DNA of 57,349 nucleotides from Akkermansiaceae bacterium (GTDB lineage: Bacteria > Verrucomicrobiota > Verrucomicrobiia > Verrucomicrobiales > Akkermansiaceae), in contig CAIZNN010000052.1 in NCBI GenBank assembly GCA_903934285.1, positions 1 through 57,349 on the forward strand, given 5' to 3'. The position numbers were made by a program, and so were the translations under genes. Below, piece by piece: positions 10,638-26,940 of the stretch. How positions within the stretch are numbered: position 1 is the first letter of the stretch; the number at the start of each line of letters is the position of its first letter. The notes under the pieces were generated by a model. That model worked only from the letters and a program-made list of their open reading frames with translations, had not been told where the DNA came from and made no database searches.

Positions 10638-10640
10638 CAA

Positions 10641-10732
10641 GACAGAAGACCGCTGCGCTCCCAGACAGAAGACCGCTGCGCTCCAAGACAGAAGACCGCT
10701 ACGCTCCCAGACAGAAGACCGCTGCGCTCCCA
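10641..10732. repeat. Four tandem copies of a 23-bp repeat
   Basis: GACAGAAGACCGCTGCGCTCCCA is repeated four times end to end with one or two changes per copy. About 35 bases further on (10768-10802) the inverse word GTCTTCTGTC occurs several times, so the region can fold into large hairpins and may end nadC transcription. Confidence 0.85.
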
Positions 10733-10869
10733 GACGGATGGTTTGGAAAGCGCCAGCTCTCTTCCTCTTGTCTTCTGTCTTCTGTCTCAAAGTCTTCTGT
10801 CTCTCACCGATAACTGATAACTAATAACTGACACCGTCTTTTCCATCCTGCGTCCCCCCGCCCTTCACC

Positions 10870-23347: not shown

Positions 23348-23400
23348 CACCGGCAGCAGCACCCAGCCACCAGTCCTAACCGACGAGCGCGACATTCCGG

Positions 23401-23497
23401 TCGGACAGATCGGACAGATCGGACCGATCGGACCGATCGGACAGATCGGACAGATCGGACAGATCGGACCGATCGGACCGATCGGACCGATCGGACC
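23401..23497. repeat. Nine-base tandem repeat (TCGGACAGA/TCGGACCGA)
   Basis: Ten full copies of TCGGAC(A/C)GA occupy 23401-23490, with a partial eleventh to 23497. The fifth variable base alternates in blocks, so two sub-variants have expanded. It lies between the convergent aminotransferase and leuS genes and is not part of either. Confidence 0.9.
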
Positions 23498-23499
23498 AT

Positions 23500-23523
23500 C
23501 GCCACCGCTATCGCGCGGTGGCG
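23500..23523. terminator. GC-rich hairpin between convergent genes
   Basis: CGCCACCGC (23500-23508) pairs perfectly with GCGGTGGCG (23515-23523). There is no T run, so it may be only a partial or bidirectional terminator between the aminotransferase and leuS. Confidence 0.4.
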
Positions 23524-23535
23524 CGGCACCGGGCA

Positions 23536-26500
23536 TCAGTTTGCGACGAAGTTCACGAGCTTGCCTTGGATATAGACGATCTTGCGGATGGTCTTGCCGT
23601 CGGTGTGGTCCTTGACCTTGGCGCTGGCCAAGGCAGCGGCGGTGGCGGCGGCTTCGTCGCAATCCTTGGAGACGATGATGCGGTCGCGCAGCTTGCCATT
23701 GACCTGGACGACGAGCTCCACTTCGCTGCGCACCAGCGCAGACGGGTCGTAAACGGGCCAGGTCGCTTCCGACAGCTGCGCCGCCGGGCGCTGGAAGGCC
23801 ACCGCCACGCGCTGGTGGATCTCCTCGGTGAGATGCGGCGCAAACGGGTTAAGCACCGTTAGAAATTGGATGAACTCGTCAAGTGGCACCACCTCGGCCT
23901 GGGTGAAGGCGTTGGTGCAAATCATCATCTGCGAAATGGCGGTGTTGAAACTGAGTTTCTCGATGTCCTCGCCGACCTTTTTGATGGTTTCGTGAACCAG
24001 CCGCCGCAGTTCCTTGGCGGCACAGGGGACGTCGCCTATCTTGTTAGACACGCGCCATGCGCCGGCCTCGTCCTGCTCCAAGGCGAGGCGCCAGACGCGG
24101 GCGAGGAAGCGCGACACGCCCTCGACGCCTTTCATTTGCCAGGGTTTGACCTGTTCCAGCGGCCCCATGAACATTTCGTAGAGGCGCAGGGCGTCGGCAC
24201 CGTATTCGCTAACAACATCGTCCGGGTTGACGACGTTGCCACGGGATTTGGACATTTTCTGGCCGTCCTCGCCAAGAATGAGTCCTTGGTTGACGAGTTT
24301 TTGGAATGGCTCGGGGGTGGTGACGTGGCCGAGGTCGAAGAGCACCTTGTGCCAAAAGCGGGCGTAGAGGAGATGCAGCACGGCGTGCTCGGTGCCACCG
24401 ACGTAGAGATCGACCATGCCCACCGCGGAAGCCGCCGACGGGTCGTCGGTGCGCCGCTGGCCCCAATAGGTTTCGGCTTCGCGGGAGATGAAGCGGTCGG
24501 TGTTAGATGGGTCGCAATAGCGCAGATAATACCAGCAGGAGCCAGCCCACTGAGGCATGGTGTTGGTTTCCCTAACGGACCCGTCGGCCAGTTCCACCCA
24601 TTCGCGCGCCTTGCTGAGGAGCGGTTCGGGCGTGCCGCTGGGTTTGTAGTCGTCGAGCGGCGGGGCGAGCAGTGGCAGCTCGCTCTCGGCAATGGCTTGG
24701 TGGTGGCCATCTTGCCACACGATGGGAAACGGCTCACCCCAATAGCGTTGGCGCGAGAACAACCAGTCGCGCAATTTGTATTGCACGCGGCGCCGGCCAA
24801 GATTGTTGGCTTCGAGCCACTCGATCATGGCGGCCTTGGCCGCGGCGGTGGGCAGCCCGTCGAGAAAGCCGGAGTTGATGGCGATGCCGGGCTCGGAGAA
24901 GGGTGCAGTCAAACTCGCGGGCGTCCCGCCCGCGGGCTCAAGGGGTGTGGGCGTCCCGCCCACATGCTCAAGGAGCGTGGGCGTCCCGCCCACCTGCTCA
25001 AGGAGCGTGGGCGTCCCGCCCACATGCTCAAGGAGTGTGGGCGTCCCGCCCACATGCTCAAGGAGCGTGGGCGTCCCGCCCACATGATTTGCATAAAGAA
25101 CATAGCTAGCATCCCTCAACTTGGCCCGCCCGGGATTCCTCGCAATATAGTTCCGAAGGTTGGCGCGGTGCTCGCCATCTCTAACGATCCGGTCCCAGTA
25201 TTCCCTCTGCCAAACAACCCCCTCACGTCCCAACATTTCGTTGATTTTCTTTGCGGAAAAGCTTTTCCACGATTGAATCACGTCTTCGAGTTTCAGACCC
25301 GGCGCAAGGAGGAAGAGCGCATGCACATGGTTCGGCATCACGACGAACGAATCCATCAAATAGCGGTCGCCGTCAAAGTGCCGTAAGGCATCTGCGACGA
25401 TCGCGGCGATGGCAGGATCCTTCAGCAGGCAGTCGCCGCCACCCGCATCCAGCCAGTGATCGATCGACTTGGAGAATGTTTCGTGGTATTCCTGTTCGGT
25501 TGTCGCGCTCCAGGGTTCCGGGTGTTGCGCGAGCCAGGCGTCGCGCTGACAGGTCCATTCCCTGAGCTTGTCCGCAGGCAAGCTGTCGGCGAGGCGCCAG
25601 GTGACAAAGTAAAGTTTCGCGTCTTGTTGCCAGTGGGGGAGTTGGTTCGAGTGGTGTTTTTGGATTTCCTGCTCGGGATTCAGATACGGAGCACATGTGG
25701 GCGGGACGCCCACACTCCTTGGTGTGGGCGGGACGCCCACGCTCCTTGAAACCACCTCGACGATGGGCAAGCCGAAGCGTTGGGCAAACTCGAAGTCGCG
25801 TTCGTCGTGGCCTGGCACGGCCATGATGGCGCCGGTGCCATAGCCCATCATGACGTAGTCGGCGATCCAGACGGGAATCCGCGCGTCATTGACGGGATTG
25901 ATGGCATAAGCGCCGGTGAAGATGCCGGACTTGTCCTTGTTGAGGTCGCCGCGATCCATGTCGGACTTGGAGGCGCACGCTTTCTGATAGGCTTGGACGC
26001 TGCTGTGCTGCCCGGCGGTGGTGATTTGCGCCAGCAGCGGGTGCTCGGGGGCGAGCACCATGTAGGTCGCTCCAAACAAGGTGTCCGGGCGGGTGGTGAA
26101 CACTTCAATCGCGGAATCAAACTGCTCAAGTTGGAATCTAACGGTGGAACCCTCGCTGCGGCCGATCCAATTTTTCTGCAGCAACTTGATGCCTTCCGGC
26201 CACTCGAGGGCCTCGAGTTCGTCGATGAGGCGCTGGGCGTAGGCGGTGATGCGCAGCATCCACTGGCGCAGCGGGCGGCGTTCGACGCTGTGGCCTTTGG
26301 CTTTCCACTCTTCGACTTCTTCGTTAGCCAGGACGGTGCCGAGGTCAGGCGACCACCACACCGGGGTTTCGGCGACATAGGCCAGGCGGACCTCATCGAT
26401 CTGCTCGCGGCTCCAGCCGTTGGCGGCGAGTTCGGCGACCGGCTTGGCCCTGTGGTCCTGGTCGCAGAAATACGACCCGTAGAGTTGGAGGAAAATCCAC

Positions 26501-26940
26501 TGGGTCCAGCGCACGTATTGCGGGTCGGTGGTGGCGATTTCGCGCTCCCAATCATAGGCAAAGCCGAGCGCCTTGAGTTGGCGGCGGAAGGTGATGATAT
26601 TGGCGGCGGTGGTGATGGCGGGGTGCTGGCCGGTCTTGATGGCGTATTGCTCGGCGGGCAGGCCGAACGAATCGTAGCCCATCGGATGGAGGACATTGAA
26701 GCCCTGCATGCGTTTGAAGCGCCCGATGATATCGGTGGCGGTGTAGCCTTCCGGATGCCCGACATGGAGACCGGCACCACTCGGGTAGGGAAACATGTCG
26801 AGCACGTAGTATTTCGGTTTGGCCGGATCAAACCCGGGATCGCCGGGACCGGGTGTGCGGAAGGTTTTGTCGGTGTCCCAGCGGGACTGCCAAGCGGGTT
26901 CGAAATCGCTGAACGGAAATGGTTTGCGGGAGTCTGACAT
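23536..26940 (-). CDS. leuS: Leucyl-tRNA synthetase with an in-frame RAYT transposase insertion
   Basis: The 1134-residue frame is a complete class I leucyl-tRNA synthetase charging tRNA-Leu, but about 285 residues longer than the usual 850 or so. It has the HIGH-type motif HVGHPEGY (59-66), editing-domain blocks ending in [15 protein letters not shown] (368-382), the catalytic core after the insert ([20 protein letters not shown]), KMSKS (895-899) and the C-terminal domain to 1134. Residues about 398-682 are foreign: a RAYT transposase plus translated REP repeats (see 24895-25749). Host residues on either side match an uninterrupted synthetase, and no stop or frameshift occurs, so the insert must be translated if leuS is expressed from this locus. 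It replaces a variable loop late in the CP1 region. No second leuS is in the window. Confidence 0.93.
24916..25083 (-). repeat. Tandem REP array translated as a decapeptide repeat
   Basis: Six palindromes recur every 30 bases: a variant CGCGGGCG-TCC-CGCCCGCG type at 24916-24934, then GTGGGCGTCCCGCCCAC at 24947-24963, 24977-24993, 25007-25023, 25037-25053 and 25067-25083, separated by spacers such as ATGCTCAAGGAGC. Because 30 is divisible by three, the minus-strand frame reads [10 protein letters not shown] six times (residues about 620-679) with few changes. Confidence 0.92.
25090..25671 (-). CDS. REP-associated tyrosine transposase (RAYT) domain, nested in leuS
   Basis: Residues about 424-617 of the LeuRS frame form a complete-looking RAYT (Y1/HUH single-strand transposase, IS200-like). 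It has [20 protein letters not shown] at its start, the HUH motif MPNHVHAL (H538, H540), [13 protein letters not shown], and the likely catalytic Tyr598 in [15 protein letters not shown]. RAYTs cut and move REP palindromes. I find no ATG at its own expected start (the codon before LNPEQEI is TAT), so this copy seems to lack an independent start and may be made only as part of the synthetase. All codons are in frame with leuS on the same strand. Confidence 0.83.
25697..25740 (-). repeat. Pair of inverted-orientation REP palindromes upstream of RAYT
   Basis: GTGGGCGGGACGCCCAC occurs at 25697-25713 and 25724-25740. The centre is GGA where the downstream array has TCC, so these are the same REP in the opposite orientation. 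They are translated as SVGVPPT repeats within LeuRS. Confidence 0.9.

Follow-up and report, generated by a model that had tools for sequence, protein, structure and literature searches.

The window (the whole stretch of DNA analysed here, 57,349 nt) carries on its minus strand, at positions 23536-26940, a gene for leucyl-tRNA synthetase (LeuRS), leuS, which together with an insert forms a single open frame of 1134 codons. Against the leuS_bact profile the protein scores 946.9 bits (cut-off 548.4), the match being divided into three stretches by the insert, and the LeuRS homology is complete on either side of it. The foreign segment comprises residues 398-682 (24895-25749, minus strand) and consists, in this order, of REP hairpins, a RAYT domain with an intact HUH motif and Tyr, and further REP hairpins. 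It is preceded by LeuRS residues 1-397 (25750-26940, minus strand), namely the N-terminal region and the greater part of the CP1 editing domain (leuS_bact; Pfam editing domain at residues 256-399; alignment to T. thermophilus LeuRS, 1h3n, up to chain residue 368), and followed by residues 683-1134 with the stop codon (23536-24894, minus strand), which include the end of CP1 and the KMSKS, anticodon-binding and C-terminal parts (leuS_bact at 679-1133; Pfam Anticodon_1). The insertion site lies in the CP1 editing domain at about residue 368 of the T. thermophilus enzyme. The original prediction of a RAYT in frame within leuS, at residues 398-682 of a 1134-residue protein and in a variable CP1 loop, is confirmed by the open frame, by the leuS_bact and Y1_Tnp matches and by the length of empty linkers in relatives, 65-107 residues.

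The host frame is the only one open throughout the insert, the remaining five frames having 2 to 9 stops each; this, and the recurrence of the arrangement in other genomes of the order, speaks against chance. As there is no stop between RAYT and LeuRS, the RAYT is not a stand-alone transposase gene of the kind found in REPtrons, and the single open frame supports the predicted union of transposase and synthetase in one polypeptide. The RAYT was also said to have no obvious start of its own; this holds for Met codons, which are absent between the insertion site and the RAYT core in the window and in 27 of 30 leuS inserts, but GTG codons are present in frame within the REPs of leuS inserts. A second leuS, named in the original prediction as a reason to reject it, was looked for and not found in the genome of the window (4.80 Mb, 282 contigs, 96.9% complete). 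The GC content at third codon positions is not decisive: 0.71 in the RAYT core, between LeuRS (0.80) and stand-alone RAYT (0.67). Just downstream of leuS lies an array of 11.8 copies of a 9-nt unit (23397-23501), followed by an aminotransferase frame on the other strand; another array (10640-10735) contains 4.2 copies of a 23-nt unit.

The RAYT core domain spans residues 434-608 (25117-25641, minus strand). The insert matches Pfam Y1_Tnp with 36.7 bits (cut-off 23), while against NCBIfam REP_Tyr_transpos (NF047646) the window insert alone scores 72.4 bits, below the cut-off of 80, and sister inserts reach 80.9 and 80.7 bits. A profile built from 24 RAYT domains retrieves the solved TnpArep structure 4er8 with an E-value of 5.5e-9. 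The catalytic residues that had been predicted, H538, H540 and Y598, are all present: the HUH motif is encoded at 25321-25329 and Tyr598, the presumed nucleophile, at 25147-25149 (both minus strand). All 31 leuS RAYTs have both His, and the 30 that reach the position of Tyr all have it; among the 65 RAYT domains read in any host, the counts are 65/65 for both His and 64/64 for Tyr. In an AlphaFold model of the whole protein (21-row alignment) LeuRS is modelled well and the insert mostly has pLDDT below 50; the model of RAYT only (three rows) has low confidence, with a mean pLDDT of 54.3, and a Foldseek search with this model gave IS200/IS605-type transposases as the best matches, with E-values of 0.007 or worse and none at 0.001, so that no conclusion is based on it.

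To characterize selection on the RAYT we compared non-synonymous and synonymous substitution rates. The dN/dS ratios of the RAYT are 0.034-0.121 in the eight of 16 pairs with estimable (unsaturated) dS, similar to those of LeuRS in these eight pairs (0.025-0.205); many dS values are saturated and the usable ones are near or above one, so that the ratios are rough. They indicate purifying selection on the RAYT. Since an open frame alone requires neither retention of the HUH motif and Tyr nor a low dN/dS, the fold of the RAYT, and probably its activity, appear to be under selection.

Inverted REP hairpins, missed by the original prediction, frame the RAYT as in REPtrons, with two copies upstream and five plus a degenerate one downstream, spaced by 27 or 30 nt. 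The upstream block (25694-25749, minus strand) has its two hairpins 27 nt apart, is read as 18 residues, and consists of exact inverted copies of the downstream REPs, with GGAG before the stem; for one copy the DNA fold has an energy of -9.5 kcal/mol (z -4.4). The downstream array (24916-25086, minus strand) has a 30-nt period and is read as 10-residue repeats. Folded as single-stranded DNA, the hairpins tested have energies of -8.5 to -9.6 kcal/mol, with z from -3.4 to -5.3. Spacings divisible by three keep the array in frame; in other REP arrays of the same genome the spacings are 87, 70 and 27.

The REP core of the leuS type occurs 26 times in the genome, compared with two occurrences of the reversed pattern: seven copies are in leuS and 19 on 11 other contigs. 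For published REPs, abstracts give copy numbers of over 100 per genome. The tetranucleotide before the stem is GGAG in 25 of the 26 copies and GGGG in one, not the GTAG of REPtrons; GTGG is found in some published REPs (PMC2817692). One of the 19 copies outside leuS is in frame in carB, exactly where relatives have a RAYT; at this place (L025; G000:C91, near locus 1500) the leuS-type REP stands, in frame, beside a second REP type. The REPs elsewhere would fit a RAYT that moves REPs out of leuS, the scars serving as landing pads. We classify the element as a RAYT by its protein domain and as REPtron-like by its layout; it does not appear to be a plain REPtron, because two usual marks, an own gene and the GTAG tag, are lacking.

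A RAYT occupies the same LeuRS site, in frame and with no stops, in 29 of 386 genomes of the order, distributed over four families: 24 in the family of the window, two in f2, one in f3 and two in f4. Two of these leuS genes (G019 and G389) end at a contig end. A further case (G010) comes from outside the 386-genome draw, and in G052 leuS is broken at contig ends inside the RAYT. The 30 filled linkers have 184-338 residues, the two shortest being cut by contig ends, compared with 65-107 residues in 40 empty ones, and no antisense RAYT was seen among the LeuRS linkers read. A search of a 387-genome draw of the phylum at E-values up to 1e-60, a threshold at which more divergent cases could be missed, yielded five genomes with leuS-type RAYTs, all in the order of the window and none outside it. 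A scan of IMG/VR for additional RAYTs produced a single weak locus. The same LeuRS loop holds unrelated extra segments of about 30-40 residues in some genomes that lack a RAYT (L062, L066, L067, L094). One f2 genome (G119, locus L217) has a LeuRS apart from those of other f2 genomes and a RAYT 79% identical to that of G071 (LeuRS 71%), which may reflect transfer or contamination.

Two alternative explanations can be weighed on these data. The genomes are drafts in which REP arrays break contigs, as happened to leuS in G019 and G052, and this could suggest an assembly or binning artefact; its probability is negligible, given the same frame and site in 29 separately assembled genomes, some with contigs over 100 kb (259 kb in G018, 117 kb in G017 and 105 kb in G028), and RAYTs embedded in the one-contig genomes G004 (metH) and G239 (ispG). 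The possibility of an assembly error, raised in the original prediction, is therefore very unlikely. According to the other explanation, the insert is removed after transcription or translation, by protein splicing or translational bypassing, and mature LeuRS is normal. This would explain how an essential enzyme can bear the insert, and inteins behave so; we nevertheless consider it highly improbable, since no intein (Hint) family is among the Pfam or NCBIfam matches of the protein with E-values up to 0.001, bypassing could do without an open frame, which all 29 genomes nevertheless have, and REP remnants stay in frame where the RAYT is gone.

The leuS insertion is not a lone case: members of the same family also lie in frame within alaS, metH, ispG, carB and further genes. 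A search of 14 genomes of the same genus with the RAYT profile gave 68 rows, 44 of them full length, defined as covering at least 160 of 175 positions (the count leaves out 24 partial rows, which include the alaS RAYTs). The 44 full-length RAYTs fall into 25 stand-alone frames of 197-319 residues and 19 embedded frames of 592-1399 residues, with none between. The embedded ones lie in leuS (three), carB (two), metH (seven, one of them in the one-contig G004) and ispG (seven, one of them in the one-contig G239), and in no other gene. The genome of the window itself has three embedded RAYTs: those in leuS and in metH, the latter cut by a contig end, and a more divergent one in alaS. RAYTs in frame in alaS are found in 11 of 59 relatives; in a twelfth relative, G010, the alaS RAYT is distributed over two frames, through either error or decay. 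The carB gene has a RAYT at its one site in four of 288 genomes of the order and in G001, G016 and G010. Further embedded hosts in the order are hsdR, an Eco57I-type methylase, glycosyltransferases, a NUDIX hydrolase and an adenosine deaminase-like protein.

Several of these loci have features of their own. The in-frame RAYTs of five hsdR genes from four families (L095, L214, L219, L220 and L221) form one clade, and hsdR of L219 has an additional in-frame REP-only block further on. The RAYTs in the adenosine deaminase-like protein, glycosyltransferases, NUDIX hydrolase and Eco57I-type methylase are at L102, L103, L094, L104, L105, L106, L234 and L101; the NUDIX frames with RAYT begin upstream of the gene and their starts are unsure. 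The metH frames of this genus (L269, L270, L273, L289, L291, L294 and L296) start near model position 310-340, the N-terminal homocysteine domain being apparently a separate gene or missing.

The distribution over host genes bears on the explanation by recurrent, independent random insertions filtered by survival, of which only in-frame events in tolerant loops would be seen. The leuS site is indeed a variable loop, with empty linkers of 65-107 residues, and on the RAYT tree, built from 63 of 65 domains with two partial ones omitted, starred branches cannot be reconciled with fewer than three switches between leuS and other sites. However, random landing should strike many dispensable genes, whereas all 19 embedded full-length RAYTs of the 14 genomes are in four genes, and the RAYTs cluster by host gene: the leuS label requires five changes for 30 rows (shuffled mean 21.4; none of 500 shuffles as low), and the labels of hsdR, ada, nudix and carB require one, one, one and two changes, respectively. 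RAYT lineages are tied to host sites, and random insertion is quite improbable.

On the LeuRS tree, built without the insert, the pattern is different. This tree has 70 rows, 30 inserted (the 29 and G010) and 40 empty, the latter drawn only from the 59 relatives; it excludes G052 and six genomes whose leuS is incomplete. Presence of the insert requires 21 changes, compared with a shuffled mean of 22.8 (137 of 500 shuffles as low), and is spread over the tree much as a randomly assigned label would be; the uneven sampling would be expected to bring inserted rows together rather than to disperse them. A single site that is occupied patchily, together with an element tree unlike the host tree, is seen here and is characteristic of homing elements.

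The comparison of close relatives proposed in the original prediction revealed full, scarred and empty leuS alleles. Genomes G031 and G285 have LeuRS 98% identical and RAYTs only 51% identical, and G007 has an in-frame REP scar only, LeuRS identity across the three being 96.5-98% (LeuRS of G031 is incomplete). The pairs G389/G008 and G017/G015, each with and without the insert, have LeuRS identities of 96.6% (G389 being partial) and 95.5%, respectively. The G001 allele is the junction expected from recombination between direct REP copies of an allele of the G344 or G030 type, and the scar of G007 matches the right end of the G285 type, the frame being kept in both; these two REP-only alleles look like excision products, and are in line with the earlier argument that any loss must keep the frame. 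Comparison of G071 with G049 shows an insertion replacing just a few host codons. Taken together, the full, scarred and empty alleles are as would be expected of homing elements.

Near-identical LeuRS with and without the insert also bear on domestication, one of the options named in the original prediction. The RAYT would then be a useful part of LeuRS, in tRNA or DNA binding or in regulation. Purifying selection would agree with this idea. The insert is, however, absent or reduced to a scar in LeuRS bodies 95-97% identical, and unrelated enzymes hold the same RAYT family, which leaves domestication a practically nil probability.

A stronger competitor assumes no homing: an old insertion, inherited or passed on by ordinary allelic exchange of leuS and often lost, in which the RAYT is only a passenger. 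RAYT and LeuRS identities correlate (Mantel r 0.43, a value reached in none of 2000 permutations), and vertical descent therefore accounts for part of the history; the ties between host sites and RAYT lineages and the good agreement within groups such as G295/G303/G315 and G019/G029 point the same way. Next to the insert, leuS flanks resemble one another less than other portions of the gene do, an observation compatible with exchange and homing alike, and as this near-site bin contains the variable linker, it permits no conclusion on copy-conversion tracts. On the other hand, the scatter on the LeuRS tree is like that of a shuffled label, two RAYT lineages reside within LeuRS bodies 98% identical, and passive baggage would not need the kept HUH motif and Tyr or the low dN/dS. 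We regard this explanation as rather unlikely.

The reading that we prefer, and consider fairly probable, is that the REP/RAYT element is an in-frame, apparently unspliced insertion in LeuRS, gained and lost at fixed sites in a homing-like manner, whose translation, catalysis and homing we infer. A REPtron-like element, i.e. the gene of a RAYT single-strand nuclease with inverted REPs, would have lost its own start and stop and come to reside in frame within a variable loop of LeuRS. Translation straight through leuS would yield a LeuRS-RAYT protein, and the element would borrow the promoter, start and selection of an essential gene. The RAYT domain may cut and join single-stranded REP DNA, and other leuS alleles may receive the element at the corresponding position, either through strand transfer at REPs or through recombination that follows a nick. 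For its loss, REP copies would have to recombine in frame, since leuS would otherwise be destroyed. Related RAYTs may behave likewise in alaS, metH, ispG and carB. There is about an even chance that they constitute a splicing-free, homing-like class, in which RAYTs would be permanent in-frame domains at fixed LeuRS, AlaRS, MetH, IspG and CarB sites, would receive expression and protection from the host gene, would spread between alleles of the same site and would seed REPs in trans as possible landing pads. Against the preferred reading one may note that the incongruence could also arise from exchange of leuS segments between alleles, that there are only 26 REPs of this type, with GGAG and not GTAG, and that the alaS RAYT of G010 is split between frames; the partly vertical history, the low confidence of both structure models in the RAYT and the saturated dS values also count against it.

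Among known systems, RAYT (TnpA-REP) and REPtrons share with the element the Y1 HUH fold, as recognized by profile, the HUH motif with one Tyr, inverted REPs around the gene and REPs elsewhere in the genome; the element differs in having no own start or stop, in lying inside essential host proteins, in GGAG instead of GTAG and in a codon site that is fixed across families. Cleavage of single-stranded REP by TnpA-REP has been demonstrated in vitro (PMC8266576). Like inteins with homing endonucleases, the leuS element is in frame, occupies fixed sites of housekeeping genes, is distributed patchily and has a tree unlike that of its host; unlike them, it has no splicing domain that we could find, carries an HUH nuclease, seems to stay in the peptide and leaves REP scars when lost. 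Yeast WHO elements (PMC7282813) share homing to an essential metabolic gene without protein splicing, but they take the place of the 3' end of FBA1 and bring a gene of their own, and are not in-frame internal insertions. As far as sequence can tell, the element seems to work like a homing element without splicing.

Palindromes (REPs and Rickettsia RPEs) read in frame inside real genes, including those of tRNA synthetases, and REPs at about the same site of Xanthomonas recB have been reported (PMC3733652); those are hairpins alone, whereas here the transposase gene itself is in frame. Hairpins within genes are thus already known, while for a RAYT in frame inside a housekeeping gene we found no report in the literature searched, as far as its texts were accessible (subscription papers and preprints were outside the scope).

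The persistence of RAYTs has been puzzling, because they do not move in the manner of insertion sequences. If its loss would break leuS, metH, ispG or carB, a RAYT has a concrete way to persist, and it would be a case of mobile DNA surviving at the protein level without splicing. Essential enzymes may thus carry a whole foreign nuclease, and, as close relatives have full, scarred and empty leuS alleles, gain and loss are open to direct testing.
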